From assembly GCA_015478895.1 (NCBI GenBank), contig JADMKK010000038.1:1-64000 (forward strand): a stretch of 64,000 nucleotides of DNA. Direction: 5' to 3'. The notes below the pieces were generated by a model. It saw only the letters and a program-made list of their open reading frames with translations, searched no databases and was not told where the DNA came from. The position numbers and the translations under genes are program-made. Below, piece by piece: positions 28,857-52,785 of this stretch (position 1 is its first letter; every line of letters starts with the position of its first letter). Source of the stretch: Comamonas sp. (GTDB lineage: Bacteria; Pseudomonadota; Gammaproteobacteria; Burkholderiales; Burkholderiaceae_C).

Positions 28857-28898
28857 AGCTTATGCTTACTTAAGTATGAAGCAAGGTGGTTGCCGAGC

Positions 28899-32234: not shown

Positions 32235-33800
32235 ATGAAGCCGATCTGGATAGTAGATGACGACCCCTCGATCCGCTTCGTCTTAGAAAAGGCGTTGGCG
32301 CGCGAAAGTTTGGATACACGCAGTTTTAGCAATCCTCGGGAAGTGCTTGCAGCACTGGCTGATTTGCCGCAGGGCGATCCGGCGCAACAAGGACCGCGTG
32401 TACTGGTCAGCGATATTCGCATGCCTGGTGGCTCGGGCCTGCAACTGCTGGAGCAATTGCACGCTCAGCAGCCAGATTTGCCGGTCATCATCATGACGGC
32501 TTACTCCGACTTAGACAGTGCAGTTTCTGCTTTTCAGCGCGGTGCTTTTGAGTACTTGCCCAAACCATTTGATTTGCCCAAGGCCGTACAACTGATCCGG
32601 CGCGCCGTGGAAGAGAGTGAACGCGAGCAGGTTGCTGAAGAGCGGCAGACGGTCATGGCCGAAATGCTGGGGCAAGCGCCTGCTATGCAAGATGTGTTTC
32701 GCGCAATTGGCCGATTGAGCCAAAGCTCGGTAACGGTGATGATCACTGGTGAATCAGGGTCTGGCAAAGAGCTGGTGGCCCGTGCTCTACACAAGCACTC
32801 TCCGGTGTCCAATGGCCCATTTGTCGCGATCAATACGGCTGCAATTCCCAAGGACTTGCTGGAGTCGGAACTGTTTGGTCATGAACGCGGTGCTTTTACT
32901 GGCGCGCAAACCCAGCGGCGTGGGCGTTTCGAACAAGCCGAAGGCGGCACGCTGTTTCTGGATGAAATTGGCGATATGCCCTTCGATTTGCAAACGCGCC
33001 TGCTGCGCGTGTTGTCGGATGGACAGTTCTACCGCGTGGGAGGGCACACGGCGGTTAAAAGCAATGTCCGGGTGATTGCTGCCACACACCAGAATTTGGA
33101 GCAGCGCGTGAAAGATGGCATTTTCCGCGAGGACTTATTCCACCGTCTTAATGTCATTCGCTTGCGCTTGCCTTCACTGCGTGAGCGCGCAGAAGATGTG
33201 CCAATGCTGACTAAGCATTTCTTGCAGCGCAGCGCCAAACAATTGGGGGTAGAGCCCAAACGCATTGCTGACACTGCTTTGCAGCGTCTAGCGCAGTTCA
33301 GCTTTCCAGGTAATGTGCGGCAGCTAGAAAACATTTGCCACTGGCTGACCGTGATGGCACCTGCGCAGCAAATCTCAGTGCAGGATTTACCTCCGGAAGT
33401 ATTGCATCGCTCTACCGCAGCACCAGACGCCTCGATCACGGCAACCGAGCGTCAAGGCGAGCCCATGCATCTGTCCGCTTCCATGGAGATGGGGAAAACC
33501 GTAGTGCAGCTAACGTCTGCGGCGATGGGGTCGCCCCCTGATTTTTCATCTGCCGCCGACGATCACCGTTGGGAAAGTTTGCTGGAGGCTGAAGCACGAA
33601 AATTGTTAGCTCAGGGTCACCACGACGTGTGGGATATCTTGAGCAAGCGCTTTGAATCGAGTTTGATTACGACTGCGCTGGCTCAGACGCATGGCAAACG
33701 CATGGAAGCCGCACAACGCCTGGGAATTGGTCGCAACACCATTACGCGAAAAATTCAGGAGCTAGGCCTGGATGAAGCAGAAAGAGGCGCCGCTGAGTAA
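32235..33800 (+). CDS. glnG: Nitrogen regulation response regulator NtrC
   Basis: Receiver ([17 protein letters not shown]), AAA+ [22 protein letters not shown]-terminal Fis HTH. Confidence 0.96.
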
Positions 33801-45374: not shown

Positions 45375-47867
45375 TTAGACGTTGGCGGGAGCAGGGCTGC
45401 TGGCAGCGGTGCCGATGGGAATGACGCGTTCGAATTGGCGGGTGTCAACCGCTGCCTTGCTCAATTCAAACCAGGGGTCAGGCTCCCCATCCAGTGCAAA
45501 CTGCAGCTGTTCCCACAGTGACTTGCGGCCTGCGTGGTCTTCCAGAATGCGCTGCTTGATGTAATCCATGCCGACGCGCTCCAGGTAGTGCACCGTGCGC
45601 TCTAGGTACCAGCCTTCGAGGCGATACAGCTGCATGAAAGCGCCGGTGTACTCCAGCACTTCTTCAGCAGTTTTGAGTTTGGTAAAGAACTGCGCCACTT
45701 CAGTCTTGATACCCCCGTTGCCGCCAATGACCATTTCCCAGCCGCTGTCCACGCCGACAATGCCCACGTCCTTGATGCCAGCCTCGGCGCAGTTGCGTGG
45801 GCAGCCGCTGACGGCAAACTTGACCTTGTGCGGCGCGTACATGCGCCACATGGCACGTTCCAGATCCTTGCCCATCTGGGTGCTGTCCTGCGTACCCATG
45901 CGGCACCATTCACTGCCCACACAGGTTTTGACCGTGCGCAGCGCCTTGGCATAACCATGGCCGCTGGGCATGCCCAGATCGCGCCAGACTGCGGTCAGGT
46001 CTTCTTTCTTCACCCCCAGCAAATCGACGCGCTGGCCTCCTGTGACCTTGACGGTGGGAATCTGGTATTTGTCCACTACGTCGGCAATGCGGCGCAGCTC
46101 GTCGGCGCTGGTCTCGCCGGCCCACATGCGCGGGATCACGCTGTAGGTGCCGTCTTTCTGGATGTTGGCGTGGGCACGTTCATTGATCAGACGGCTCTGT
46201 GGATCGTCCTGCGCTTCCTGGGCCCAAGTGGAAATCAGGTAGTAATTCACAGCAGGGCGACAGGTGGCGCAGCCATTCGGAGTTTTCCACTCCAGCGCGG
46301 CAAATACATCGCTGATGCGCAGCAGATGCTGGTCACGAATGGCATCGCGCACCGCCTGGTGGCCGTGGGTGGTGCAGCCGCACACGGCCTTGGTCTTGGG
46401 GGCTGCCGAGTAATCGCCCCCTGCGGTAAACATGATGATCTGCTCGACCAGCCCGGTGCAGGAACCGCAGCTGGCGCTGGCCTTGGTGTGCTTGCGCACT
46501 TCGTCCAGTGTGAACAGTCCTTTGTCCTTGATGGCTTTGCAGATGCTGCTCTTGGTGACGCCGTTGCAGCCGCAGACTTCATCGCTGTCCTGCATGGCGG
46601 ACGCTTTGTTGTGGCCTTGGTGGCCGCTGTCACCAATGTTGGACTCGCCAAACATCAGGCGATCGCGGATGTCGGCAATCGAGCGTCCTTCGCGCAGCAG
46701 TTTGAAATACCAGCTACCGTCTACAGTATCCCCATACAGGCAGGCACCCACCAGCTTGTCGTCCTTGATGACCAGCTTCTTGTAGACGCCGCCTCCGGGC
46801 GCGAACGGGTCGCGCAGCACAATGGTTTCCGTATCGGCATCCCCTTGGAAGTTACCGGCTGAAAACAGGTCAATCCCCGTGACTTTGAGCTTGGTCGAGG
46901 TGAGCGAGCCGCTATAGCGGCCAATGCCCCATTCTGCGAGGTGGTTGGCCAGCACTTTGGCCTGCTCGAACAGCGGGGCGACCAGCCCGTATGCAATGCC
47001 TCGATGATTGGCACATTCACCCACGGCATAGATGCGCGGATCGGTCACGGTCTGCATGGTGTCACTCACCACAATGCCGTGGTTTACGTGCAGGTGCATG
47101 CGCTGGGCCAGCTCTGTATTGGGGCGTATGCCCACAGCCATTACCACCAGCTGAGCGGGCACTTCACGGCCGTCCTGGAAGCGTATGGCACGTACACGGC
47201 CACTGCCATCTCCCAGCAGCTCCTGTGTGTGGGCATTCATCAGGAACTGCAGGCCCCGGTCCTGCAAGGACTGCTGCAGCATCTTGCCGGCGACATCGTC
47301 AAGTTGGCGCTCCATCAGCCAGTCATTCACATGTACCACGTTGACTTGCATGCCGCGCTTGCTCAGGCCGTTAGCGGCCTCCAGCCCTAGCAGACCGCCG
47401 CCAATCACGACCGCATGGGAGAACTGCTGTGCCGCATCAATCATGGCCTGGGTGTCGGCAATGTCACGGTAGCCAATGACGCCTCCAAGTTGAGCGCCAG
47501 GCACGGGCAATATGAAGGGGTTGGAGCCGGTCGCCAGCACCAGCCTGTCATAGGTGGTAATCACGGTGTCACCGGCAGCGTTGGTGGCCGTCACGCTGCG
47601 GCGTGTGCGATCCACTTGTGTGACTTGGTATCCGGTGTGCAACATGATGCAGTTGTCCGTGTACCAGTTCCAGTCATTGAGCACAATTTCTTCGAGCGTT
47701 TGCTCACCGGCCAGTACGGGGGAGAGCAAGATGCGGTTGTAGTTAGGGTGCGGTTCGGCACCAAAAACGGTGATCTCGTAGTGATCGGGTGCAATCTTGA
47801 GCAGCTCTTCCAGCGTGCGGATGCCTGCCATGCCATTGCCGACCAAGACCAGTTTGGATTTCTTCAT
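45375..47867 (-). CDS. nirB: Nitrite reductase [NAD(P)H] large subunit
   Basis: N-terminal FAD/NAD domains, two BFD-like [2Fe-2S] domains, siroheme/4Fe-4S GCPRNCAEAGIKDVG. Confidence 0.97.
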   Translation of the reverse strand: MKKSKLVLVGNGMAGIRTLEELLKIAPDHYEITVFGAEPHPNYNRILLSPVLAGEQTLEEIVLNDWNWYTDNCIMLHTGYQVTQVDRTRRSVTATNAAGDTVITTYDRLVLATGSNPFILPVPGAQLGGVIGYRDIADTQAMIDAAQQFSHAVVIGGGLLGLEAANGLSKRGMQVNVVHVNDWLMERQLDDVAGKMLQQSLQDRGLQFLMNAHTQELLGDGSGRVRAIRFQDGREVPAQLVVMAVGIRPNTELAQRMHLHVNHGIVVSDTMQTVTDPRIYAVGECANHRGIAYGLVAPLFEQAKVLANHLAEWGIGRYSGSLTSTKLKVTGIDLFSAGNFQGDADTETIVLRDPFAPGGGVYKKLVIKDDKLVGACLYGDTVDGSWYFKLLREGRSIADIRDRLMFGESNIGDSGHQGHNKASAMQDSDEVCGCNGVTKSSICKAIKDKGLFTLDEVRKHTKASASCGSCTGLVEQIIMFTAGGDYSAAPKTKAVCGCTTHGHQAVRDAIRDQHLLRISDVFAALEWKTPNGCATCRPAVNYYLISTWAQEAQDDPQSRLINERAHANIQKDGTYSVIPRMWAGETSADELRRIADVVDKYQIPTVKVTGGQRVDLLGVKKEDLTAVWRDLGMPSGHGYAKALRTVKTCVGSEWCRMGTQDSTQMGKDLERAMWRMYAPHKVKFAVSGCPRNCAEAGIKDVGIVGVDSGWEMVIGGNGGIKTEVAQFFTKLKTAEEVLEYTGAFMQLYRLEGWYLERTVHYLERVGMDYIKQRILEDHAGRKSLWEQLQFALDGEPDPWFELSKAAVDTRQFERVIPIGTAASSPAPANV

Positions 47868-47901
47868 TGCGACCCCCGTGGGCGGATTCCATTAACAAAC
47901 G

Positions 47902-47952
47902 AAAAAAGGCGCCGTTCCTTGCGCAGATGGGGCTGCGAAGAAAGACGCCTTT
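47902..47952 (-). terminator. Leader attenuator hairpin upstream of nirB
   Basis: Minus strand AAAGGCG...CGCCTTTTTT with inner CGCAG-CCCCAT-CTGCG. Confidence 0.75.
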
Positions 47953-47980
47953 GTCTTGGGTTCCGGTCCACCGTTGCACC
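47942..47980 (-). ncRNA. Candidate ANTAR-target two-hairpin element in nirB leader
   Basis: P1 GGTGC-AACGGT-GGACC (47965-47980, one G-G mismatch), P2 AAGAC-AAAGGC-GTCTT (47942-47957); both hexaloops A1/G4. Confidence 0.7.
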
Positions 47981-48017
47981 TCACCCTGTAGCCAGCTCTG
48001 ACTACGGAAAAGAACAA

Positions 48018-48033
48018 TGCAATAGTTGTGCCA
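48018..48033 (-). promoter_or_regulatory. Sigma54 promoter of nirB operon
   Basis: Minus strand TGGCACA-ACTA-TTGCA, perfect -24/-12 match. Confidence 0.85.
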
Positions 48034-48084
48034 GATGAAATTTGCGGTGCCAAGCGATCACCGTGAGCCAATACAGGCAGCACA

Positions 48085-49919: not shown

Positions 49920-51197
49920 TTAGACCTTGATGGCAAAGTTGTCGGCGTATTGGGCGGGGTTGCTGCCATCCCAGACGACACCATCAATGAGTTTGCTGCT
50001 GCGCATCACCTCCTTGGGGATGTTCACATTGAACTGGGAGGCTGCTTCCTTGTACAGATCAATCCGGTTGATCTGTTTAGCGACGGACAGATAGTCTGGG
50101 TGCTCCTTGAGAAGGCCCCAGCGCTTGTGCTGGGTGAGAAACCACATGCCATCGGACAGGTAGGGAAAGTTCACCGCACCATCGCTGAAGAATTTCATGT
50201 GGTTTGGGTCATCCCAGGATTTGCCCATGCCGTTCTGGTAGCGACCCAGAATGCGCTGGTTGATGGCATCCACATGGGTGTTGACGTAGGACTTGTCAGC
50301 AATGGTTTCAGCCATCTTCACCTTGTTTTGCAGGCTGGCATCAATCCATTGACTGGCTTCCAGAATGGCCATCATCACGGCGCGTGAGGTGTTGGGGTTT
50401 TGTTTGACGAAGTCGGAGGTCGTGCCCAGCACTTTTTCCGGATGGTCTTTCCAGATGTCTTGTGTGGTGACGGCCGTGACACCGATCTTGTCCATGATGG
50501 CACGATGGTTCCAGGGCTCCCCCACGCAAAAGCCATCCATATTGCCTACGCGCATATTGGCCACCATTTGCGGAGGCGGGACGGTGATGACCTTGGCATC
50601 CTTGAAGGGGTTGATGCCTGCGCTGGCCAGCCAGTAGTACAGCCACATCGCGTGCGTGCCCGTGGGGAAGGTCTGGGCAAAGGTGTATTCGCGCTTTTCG
50701 CTGGCCATCAGTTTGGCGAGACTGGCACTATCCACCGCCCCCTTGTCAGCCAGTTTTTTGGACAGCGTGATGGCCTGGCCGTTGTGGTTGAGCGTCATCA
50801 GCACCGCCATGTCTTTCTTGGCACCGCCCACGCCCAGCTGCAGGCCGTACATCATGCCGTAGAGCACATGGGCAAAGTCCAGATCGCCATTGACCAGCTT
50901 GTCACGCACACCAGCCCAGCTCGCTTCCTTGGTGGGGATGATCTTGACGCCGTATTTCTGGTCAAAGCCCAGCACCGAAGCCATGACCACGCTGGCGCAG
51001 TCGGTCAGCGGAATGAAGCCGATCTTGACTTCTTTTTTCTCGGGAGCATCGGAGCCTGCAGCCCAGACGCCGTTGTGGCCCAGCTGGGTGTACAGCGCAG
51101 CGCTTGCGGCCAAACCTACGGTCTGGGATAAAAAGCGGCGGCGTGATGGGGTCGATGGGGTGTCGTCAGTGGGGGCTGCAGAGGGTGTATGTGCCAT
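49920..51197 (-). CDS. nrtA: Nitrate ABC transporter substrate-binding protein, Tat signal
   Basis: RRRFLSQTVGLAASA; NrtA-like fold (KIGFIPLTDCASVVMASVLGFDQKYG); ATG at 51197 with AGGAGC. Confidence 0.93.
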   Translation of the reverse strand: MAHTPSAAPTDDTPSTPSRRRFLSQTVGLAASAALYTQLGHNGVWAAGSDAPEKKEVKIGFIPLTDCASVVMASVLGFDQKYGVKIIPTKEASWAGVRDKLVNGDLDFAHVLYGMMYGLQLGVGGAKKDMAVLMTLNHNGQAITLSKKLADKGAVDSASLAKLMASEKREYTFAQTFPTGTHAMWLYYWLASAGINPFKDAKVITVPPPQMVANMRVGNMDGFCVGEPWNHRAIMDKIGVTAVTTQDIWKDHPEKVLGTTSDFVKQNPNTSRAVMMAILEASQWIDASLQNKVKMAETIADKSYVNTHVDAINQRILGRYQNGMGKSWDDPNHMKFFSDGAVNFPYLSDGMWFLTQHKRWGLLKEHPDYLSVAKQINRIDLYKEAASQFNVNIPKEVMRSSKLIDGVVWDGSNPAQYADNFAIKV

Positions 51198-51256
51198 GGT
51201 CCTGCTCCTTCGATGCGTGATGTCAAAAATCAAAACAGAGTGACTGTCTGAAAGCG

Positions 51257-51305
51257 CAACGGCGTCCCGATCCATCCTGGCTTACAGGGGAAGGGGACGC
51301 CGTTG
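51257..51305 (-). terminator. Leader attenuator hairpin upstream of nrtA
   Basis: Perfect 12-bp arms CAACGGCGTCCC/GGGACGCCGTTG; weak U-tract immediately downstream (CGCTTTC), further U-rich TTTTGATTTTT. Confidence 0.65.
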
Positions 51306-51345
51306 TCCTTGAAAGTGCTTGACTCCAGACCGCCGTTGGCCGGGA
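51295..51345 (-). ncRNA. Candidate ANTAR-target two-hairpin element in nrtA leader
   Basis: P1 TCC-C-GGCC-AACGGC-GGTC-T-GGA (51324-51345), P2 GGAC-AACGGC-GTCC (51295-51308); identical A1/G4 hexaloops. Confidence 0.75.
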
Positions 51346-51360
51346 TTCGCTACCCTAGCA

Positions 51361-51376
51361 TGCACAAAGTGTGCCA
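51361..51376 (-). promoter_or_regulatory. Sigma54 promoter of nrtABD
   Basis: Minus strand TGGCACA-CTTT-GTGCA; GG-N10-GC. Confidence 0.8.
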
Positions 51377-51462: not shown

Positions 51463-52785
51463 TCAGGCTATGGGCTTGGCCAGCAAGTCCGCCATTGACA
51501 GCACTGCTTCCGCCACATCGATGATGCGGCGGTTCTGGCTCATGGCGGTCTGGCGCAGCAGCTTGTGGGCTTCACTTTCCGAGAGCTTCTGGTGGGTCAT
51601 CAACAGGCCTTTGGCTCGTTCCAGCGTTTTGCGCTCCGTCAGTGCCTGGCGCACGGTGTCCAGTTCATTGCGCATGGCCTGCAGCCTTTGCGACTGCTCC
51701 TGCACTACGCTGAGCACCGACATCTGCAGCGGTGGTGCCCAGTGGTTCTCTGCAGGCATGGCGCTGCGCATGGTGAAAAATTCGGGTACAGCATCCCCTT
51801 GCGGGTGCGCAGCGGGCATGGTTGATGGAAGTCGCGCAAGGCCAGTCTGTGCCAGATCCAGCTGTACTTCGCAGTCGCGCACCAAGGCTTGGGTCAACAA
51901 AGACTCAATGTGGTGCATGCCGTCCATGACATTGGTGCAGGCTTCAAACCATAACGGGCTCAACTCACGGGGCAATTGCGCACCATCGAGTGCGGTGCAC
52001 CCAATACGGCGCAGGCGCTCCACGGCGGTGACATCAGACCCTGTGGCGCTACAGCGCTGCCAGGCCTGCACCAGTGCTTCGGGGGCACAGTCAGCAAACA
52101 CCTGCATGCAGCGTTCCTGCGCCTCAATCAAATGCAGCCAGTGCTGCTGACTGTCTGTGTAGCTGACGCCTGCGCTGAACGTTGCAGCGCCTGTGGCGCG
52201 CTCCTGGCCTGCCAGTTCCTTGCCTTGCATGAAATGGAACATGGCCACCAGCAAGCGCGAAATACTGGGGTAGGTGGCGCTGTCAGCAGCCTCAAATACC
52301 ACATTCAGCAAGTCGGCAATCAGGTGGATATAGGCTTGGGTAGATGTGTGCACGCTGGCACCAAACGCCGAAACGCTGTGGCGCAAACCCGCCAGAGCAT
52401 CCAGTCCCTGCAGCACATAGGCAATGCGGCTGCACAGGCGTGCGCCTTGGCCGCCCTGCAGGCTGTCTACATCAAGCTGGGAGAGGGCTGTGCGCAAAGT
52501 GGCCATGTGCTGATCGCTGGTCTGGCGCTGCATATGCAGAGCATCGCGCCCCATTAAGCCTTCGCTGGCCAGAAGAATGCTGGACAGGCCACGCTCCTTT
52601 TGCAGCGCATGAATCAGTTCAGCCAAGGCGCGCACCAAACTGCTGGTGCGCAGCATTCGCTGCAGCTCGTTGATTTCACACTGGCGCGCGGCTGCCAAAA
52701 AATGCAGGGGGTTTTCCATGGATGCATCGTGGGTCAGGATAGACAGGCTTAGCAATTTCTGTGCCTTGCAGGCGGTGAACTTCAA
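51463..52785 (-). CDS. nasR: Nitrate-sensing NIT-ANTAR antiterminator
   Basis: NIT-like N-terminal region (LIHALQKERGLSSILLASEG) and C-terminal ANTAR (LTERKTLERAKGLLMTHQKLSESEAHKLLRQTAMSQNRRIIDVAEAVLSM). Confidence 0.92.
   Translation of the reverse strand: MKFTACKAQKLLSLSILTHDASMENPLHFLAAARQCEINELQRMLRTSSLVRALAELIHALQKERGLSSILLASEGLMGRDALHMQRQTSDQHMATLRTALSQLDVDSLQGGQGARLCSRIAYVLQGLDALAGLRHSVSAFGASVHTSTQAYIHLIADLLNVVFEAADSATYPSISRLLVAMFHFMQGKELAGQERATGAATFSAGVSYTDSQQHWLHLIEAQERCMQVFADCAPEALVQAWQRCSATGSDVTAVERLRRIGCTALDGAQLPRELSPLWFEACTNVMDGMHHIESLLTQALVRDCEVQLDLAQTGLARLPSTMPAAHPQGDAVPEFFTMRSAMPAENHWAPPLQMSVLSVVQEQSQRLQAMRNELDTVRQALTERKTLERAKGLLMTHQKLSESEAHKLLRQTAMSQNRRIIDVAEAVLSMADLLAKPIA

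Follow-up and report, generated by a model that had tools for sequence, protein, structure and literature searches.

The leader preceding nrtA in this stretch of Comamonas DNA, the whole 64-kb length of which is called the window below, is, with high confidence, a nitrate-responsive transcription attenuator at which transcription started by sigma54 would be controlled through antitermination by NasR. By analogy with characterised ANTAR systems, NasR very probably grips a switch made of two small hairpins, P1 and P2, to prevent early termination. This reading is carried by the sequence of the leader, its covariation, the mutual exclusivity of P2 and the attenuator, the conservation of these parts and their co-occurrence with NasR, all of which were established here. 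An ANTAR two-hairpin attenuator had been proposed in the original prediction, and the proposal is supported by covariation in P1, by the NIT and ANTAR domains encoded by nasR and by the joint occurrence of leader and NasR/ANTAR genes across 301 genomes.

Composition of the nrtA leader

Direct reading of the sequence places the whole set (promoter, P1, P2 and attenuator) on the minus strand at 51377-51246, base for base as originally described, with the following parts and neighbours:

51463..52785, minus strand: nasR ORF, encoding NIT and ANTAR domains (Pfam, 177.6 and 65.2 bits)
51377-51361, minus strand: sigma54-type promoter TTGGCACACTTTGTGCA (sequence; conservation in 29 leaders)
51345-51324, minus strand: P1 hairpin TCC-C-GGCC-AACGGC-GGTC-T-GGA (covariation, four of six pairs)
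51309..51327, minus strand: P1-P2 linker of 19 nt (from the P1 core) or 15 nt (from the extended stem)
51308-51295, minus strand: P2 hairpin GGAC-AACGGC-GTCC, the putative antiterminator (98.3% of stem cells paired in 29 leaders)
51257..51305, minus strand: attenuator hairpin with perfect 12-bp arms, overlapping P2 (sequence, folding, alignment)
51305-51294 and 51268-51257, minus strand: attenuator arms CAACGGCGTCCC and GGGACGCCGTTG, respectively
51246..51259, minus strand: degenerate U-tract of the attenuator, TTGCGCTTTCAGAC, where relatives have GTTTTTGTTTTT
51225..51235, minus strand: U-rich stretch TTTTGATTTTT, preceded by a 4-bp stem (sequence)
49920..51197, minus strand: nrtA, nitrate ABC-transporter binding protein with the Tat-like signal RRRFLSQ (Pfam, sequence)

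P1 and P2 had been called two identical hairpins, which holds for their loops (AACGGC twice) and fails for their stems; in P1, a TCC/GGA extension is split from the GGCC/GGTC core by one C.U mismatch. Transcription of nrtA is expected to start near 51350, and its translation likely begins at ATG 51197, which follows AAGGAG, rather than at ATG 51275, the start of the longest ORF. The latter codon sits within the attenuator loop, and automatic annotation from it could mask the leader altogether.

The promoter is of the -24/-12 type with correct GG-GC spacing. Taken alone, this match is not significant, the 64-kb window holding 12 equally good sites; the TGGCA and the -12 GC are nonetheless invariant in all 29 related leaders. 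Elsewhere in the window, a sigma54-type site, CTGGCACGCAAACTGCT, at 28898 on the plus strand scores 12 matches, equal to the promoter of nirB. The genome contains rpoN. Within the window, at 32244-33764 (plus strand), ntrC is found, as are the nitrate-assimilation genes that it likely targets. A search for NtrC sites within 250 nt upstream of the nrtA promoter gave nothing convincing (best 9/14, shuffle p 0.7), whereas the nirB promoter is preceded, at a distance of 67-86 nt, by candidates of the GCAC-N7-GTGC type (shuffle p 0.03), and 14 of 34 related promoters have an NtrC-type site at p ≤0.05. For nirB and for many relatives, an NtrC-like site is plausible; for nrtA in this genome it is not.

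The closing C of P2, its loop and its 3' arm all fall within the 5' arm of the attenuator, and the two structures are therefore mutually exclusive, as had been claimed. Folding the growing transcript stepwise displays the switch: P1 and P2 form first, and the attenuator displaces P2 once its own 3' arm has been made. The attenuator hairpin alone folds at -32.5 kcal/mol and the 107-nt leader at -47.5 kcal/mol (z -3.8; none of 200 shuffles as good). Enforcing P2 makes the whole leader about 18 kcal/mol less stable, which implies that a bound protein would be needed to hold it.

Conservation and covariation

How readily do such hairpins arise by chance? Hexaloop hairpins with A1 and G4 and stems of at least 4 bp are common, with 80 on the minus strand of the window, and pairs of them no more than 60 nt apart occur six times on that strand and four times on the other. 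Across both strands, only one pair has identical loops, and that pair is P1/P2 of nrtA.

The original prediction had named compensatory changes among related leaders as one of its checks, and a lack of covariation in P1/P2 as one of the outcomes that would refute it. In an alignment of 29 nrtA-type leaders (A1), on which both the covariation analysis and the covariance model R1 described below are based, P1 covaries strongly, four of its six pairs changing on both sides yet remaining paired. The covariation score of P1 and P2 together is 0.278, compared with 0.120 after shuffling, and none of 500 shuffles reaches it, although the aligned leaders are related and shuffle counts are consequently not true probabilities; controls in which the pairing was slid by one to three columns each score about 0.10 or less. 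P2 is nearly invariant across the 29 leaders, as expected if the same bases are needed for both P2 and the attenuator, and this double constraint makes it unsuited to a covariation test. Every aligned leader keeps A1 and G4 of the hexaloops, the closing C-G of both loops (columns 43-50 and 97-104) is invariant, and P2 overlaps the attenuator in 29 of 29. Compensatory pairs also occur in the upper attenuator stem. The first helix drawn by RNAalifold, at columns 3-15, was rejected as an RNA structure because it coincides with the promoter and precedes the expected start site.

Since the hairpin comes after nasR and on its strand, it could be the ordinary terminator of that gene, with a sigma54 promoter for nrtA that has nothing to do with it and small hairpins that are incidental. 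Such an arrangement is highly improbable, in that the promoter is located between nasR and the hairpin, which puts the terminator inside the nrtA leader. Moreover, P1 covaries, A1 and G4 of the hexaloops are invariant, and the same set recurs before nirB, with no nasR upstream of it.

NasR and its co-occurrence with the leader

The gene next upstream of the leader, on the same strand, is nasR, and it does encode the ANTAR protein that had been anticipated, being moreover the only ANTAR gene in the 3.2-Mb genome. Its product, the presumed trans-acting regulator of the leaders, is related to the Klebsiella oxytoca NasR structure 4akk (E 7.6e-39; residues 28-432 aligned), and both carry LR..AM..N.R in the RNA-binding helix. 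Downstream of the leader follow, by Pfam, nrtABC, nirB, a Rieske-type nirD-like gene and assimilatory nitrate reductase.

The NasR protein was searched for in 301 genomes of the family Burkholderiaceae and in a set of named genomes, among which Comamonas kerstersii has the nearest homologue (66% identity). In every NasR locus read from the 301-genome search, a sigma54 site, P1, P2 and an overlapping terminator stand behind nasR; in the Zobellella loci from the named-genome search, promoter and P1-like matches lie elsewhere in the locus. R1 finds leaders in 157 of the 301 genomes, and 155 of these 157 have a NasR/ANTAR homologue (Fisher p = 8e-28, which is not a strict probability because the genomes are mutually related). 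Only two of the 78 genomes without such a homologue have a match, both weak. The leader is found in 70 of 74 genomes with full NasR and in 85 of 149 with only a shorter ANTAR homologue, leaving 68 ANTAR-homologue genomes in which it was not detected. Within the genus, R1 matches 36 of 54 genomes at E up to 0.05, and in the class, at a stricter cut-off, 27 of 243. One weak match (E 0.009) is in G129, a member of the genus in which a NasR homologue was not detected. In the genome of the window there are exactly two sense-strand matches, at 51247-51376 (nrtA) and 47894-48033 (nirB); R1 does not recognise the other copies of GACAACGGCGTC, on contigs 25 and 44, as leaders.

A second leader before nirB

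The nirB leader (48034-47902, minus strand; R1 E 1.5e-6) has the same design as that of nrtA, and both precede nitrate assimilation operons; neither it nor the long P1-P2 linker had been mentioned in the original prediction. Its parts are:

48018..48034, minus strand: sigma54-type promoter CTGGCACAACTATTGCA, upstream of nirB (sequence)
47988..48005, minus strand: extra hairpin H0, GTAGTC-AGAGCT-GGCTAC, with an A1/G4 hexaloop (96% of cells paired in 17 nirB leaders)
47965..47980, minus strand: P1 of nirB (H1), GGTGC-AACGGT-GGACC, with one G.G mismatch (17-leader alignment)
47942..47957, minus strand: P2 of nirB, AAGAC-AAAGGC-GTCTT (sequence, 17-leader alignment)
47902..47952, minus strand: terminator AAAGGCGTC / GGCGCCTTT with U-tract TTTTTT, overlapping P2 (99.3% of cells paired)
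45375..47867, minus strand: nirB, NADH nitrite reductase large subunit (Pfam NIR_SIR, Pyr_redox_2, Fer2_BFD)

Judging from this arrangement, nirB, together with the genes behind it, would be the second target operon. An alignment of 17 nirB leaders shows three pairs that change on both sides in H0, as many in H1, and one compensatory pair in the terminator. Taking the longest A1/G4 stem, H0, as P1 was rejected on the evidence of relatives: H1 retains A1/G4 and the closing C-G in other nirB leaders, whereas H0, a feature of Comamonas nirB leaders, retains its stem but has A1 and G4 in the loop in only about 60% of those read. In four Comamonas nirB leaders (L144, L147, L148 and L153), position 1 of the P2 loop is G (GAAGGC, GACGGC), contrary to the A1 rule.

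Strength of the nrtA attenuator

As had been suspected, the U-tract of the nrtA attenuator is weak; in fact, its tail, GTTGCGCTTTCAGA, is the poorest of 36 leaders. The perfect look of the stem, with its 12th base pair, was gained because a U was lost, the corresponding column pair 97-161 being C-G in only two of 29 leaders. Basal termination at this attenuator may therefore be poor and, its tail being the weakest of the 36, basal leakage is likely. The stronger U-rich stretch that had been pointed out further on, TTTTGATTTTT, does exist behind its 4-bp stem, but it is not conserved in close relatives (it is absent in C. kerstersii, L120 and L133) and was rejected as a conserved back-up terminator.

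It is conceivable, if unlikely, that the leader is a NasR target whose attenuator has lost most of its termination in this clade, so that NasR controls nrtA weakly or otherwise, and that the nirB leader is the real nitrate gate. Besides the U paid for the 12th pair and the weakest tail of the 36, set against 11 T of 14 at nirB in the same genome, this would account for the tail TTG[TC]GCTT that three other members of the genus have in common. On the other hand, P1, P2, the promoter and the perfect 12-bp stem are all kept, no other decay is visible in the leader, and a long GC-rich stem can terminate despite a poor U-tract.

Proposed mechanism

ANTAR mechanisms of this type have been published (PMC3369931, PMC7496416, PMC8934654). 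NasR binding, nitrate dependence, termination and NtrC control are each proposed here by analogy with the Klebsiella, Pseudomonas and EutV work, and initiation by sigma54 and NtrC in particular is suggested by the promoter together with studies in Klebsiella and Pseudomonas (PMC5424462, PMC3973561). RNA polymerase with sigma54 would start near 51350 when good nitrogen is scarce, NtrC being the expected activator, and P1 and P2 would be the first structures to form in the nascent RNA. Without nitrate, the 12-bp attenuator would replace P2 immediately on completion of its 3' arm, and some transcripts would end before reaching nrtA. Once NasR, the NIT-ANTAR protein, has bound nitrate or nitrite, it would sit on the A1/G4 hexaloops and hold P2, keeping the attenuator open and allowing nrtABC to be transcribed, while the second leader of the same design would control nirB and the genes behind it. 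In SELEX (PMC7496416), NasR picks paired hexaloops that carry A1 and G4 and are closed by C:G, and P1 and P2 of both leaders fit this consensus.

Relation to known regulatory RNAs

At gathering threshold, an Rfam search returned zero matches. Below it, RF03032 (narK) gives 25.8 bits for nrtA and 24.0 for nirB against a threshold of 43.2, and RF00625 (P11) gives 23.6 and 20.8 bits against one of 70, with E-values of 0.004 to 0.014 for both families and both leaders in short local searches. The leader works, on the present reading, like narK and P11, but as it falls short of both thresholds, it is assigned to neither family. The consensus of the cis-regulatory narK RNA runs GGCACA...UUGCU, then GGCAGCC-AACGGC-GGCUGCC and CGAC-AAAGAC-GUCG, which reads as a sigma54 promoter, P1 and P2; unlike the nrtA leader, the model ends before the terminator and P2 is not modelled as a stem. 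The P11 consensus also begins with an apparent sigma54 promoter, part of which is drawn as an RNA stem. The two consensus sequences suggest that narK and P11, instead of being distinct RNA classes, both belong with the NasR/NasT leaders, and that each model has taken in a sigma54 promoter.

In P. aeruginosa, the nirBD leader is regulated by NasT with NasS, in contrast to the one-component NIT-ANTAR protein expected to act here. That leader, NalA/P11 (via PA1785, NasT type), otherwise resembles ours in its sigma54 promoter, its two loops, its nirB target and a terminator sharing GGACAA.GGCGUCC (RF00625 alignment; PMC3973561). P11 is listed by Rfam as a gene, and it is this listing, along with the subthreshold matches of P11 to both leaders (23.6 and 20.8 bits) and the RNA of about 105 nt that an early stop would free, that might speak for a trans-acting small RNA, attenuation being its by-product. 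We consider this very unlikely. The title of Romeo 2012, cited in PMC3973561, puts the Pseudomonas operon down to transcriptional antitermination, conservation resides in P1, P2 and the terminator, and in the loci read the leader stands before nitrate genes.

The antitermination reading has its closest counterpart in NasR/nasF of Klebsiella oxytoca, where a NIT-ANTAR protein likewise acts on a nitrate assimilation operon through two hexaloop hairpins, the second over an intrinsic terminator, and where general nitrogen control by Ntr is combined with nitrate control by NasR (PMC7496416, PMC5424462). The differences are the two separate leaders found here, at nrtA and nirB, and the weak U-tract of the nrtA attenuator. 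The EutV/eutP ANTAR motif of Enterococcus faecalis also has tandem A1/G4 hexaloops with the second over a terminator (PMC3369931); unlike the nrtA leader, it serves ethanolamine genes, answers to a two-component REC-ANTAR regulator and has a linker of 5-12 nt. The nrtA leader would be an ANTAR attenuator in the NasR/nasF sense, a known type of control in a new bacterial group. Attenuation by NasR, described in Klebsiella, would thereby also be at work in Comamonas and many of its relatives, in each genome of which R1 finds both putative NasR targets.

Spacing of the two hexaloops

The E. faecalis eut leaders have linkers of 5-12 nt; extension to 14 nt was not tolerated by EutV (PMC3369931), and the addition of 20 nt failed as well (PMC8934654). 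The nrtA linker in the window, at 15-19 nt, exceeds that range. This length, like the weak U-tract, the lack of a convincing NtrC site at nrtA and the 68 ANTAR-homologue genomes with no leader detected, speaks against the preferred reading; the eut range itself describes one system and is not a limit that defines the family. In 33 nrtA-type leaders, 12 to 38 nt separate the P1 core from P2, and all linkers of at least 20 nt fold into a hairpin; across the set, 9.2 nt on average (sd 3.6) stay unpaired, compared with 11.5 nt (sd 6.9) after shuffling. Most relatives have a long linker with its own hairpin and about 9 nt left unpaired, near the spacing that EutV tolerates. A conserved linker hairpin was rejected for the nrtA leader of the window itself, the MFE of -0.6 kcal/mol being no better than that of shuffles.

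Perhaps, as a tentative suggestion to which we give less than even weight, RNA architecture rather than a short linker sets the P1-P2 distance in betaproteobacterial NasR leaders: a non-hexaloop hairpin in linkers of 20-38 nt (about 9 nt unpaired), none in Variovorax-type linkers of 12-14 nt, and a third hexaloop-type hairpin before P1 in the Comamonas nirB leader. If true, leaders would adjust their spacing in a modular fashion, which would loosen the limit on distance found with EutV. In the EutV structure, the ANTAR dimer reportedly touches one hexaloop at a time, which raises the question of how far apart two hexaloops may lie; the range of linkers that occur in nature could serve directly to address it. 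In the Variovorax-like leaders L011, L016, L019, L024 and L034, where the linker is 12-14 nt, there is a different promoter-P1 hairpin (such as GGACC-GGCGAC-GGTCC).
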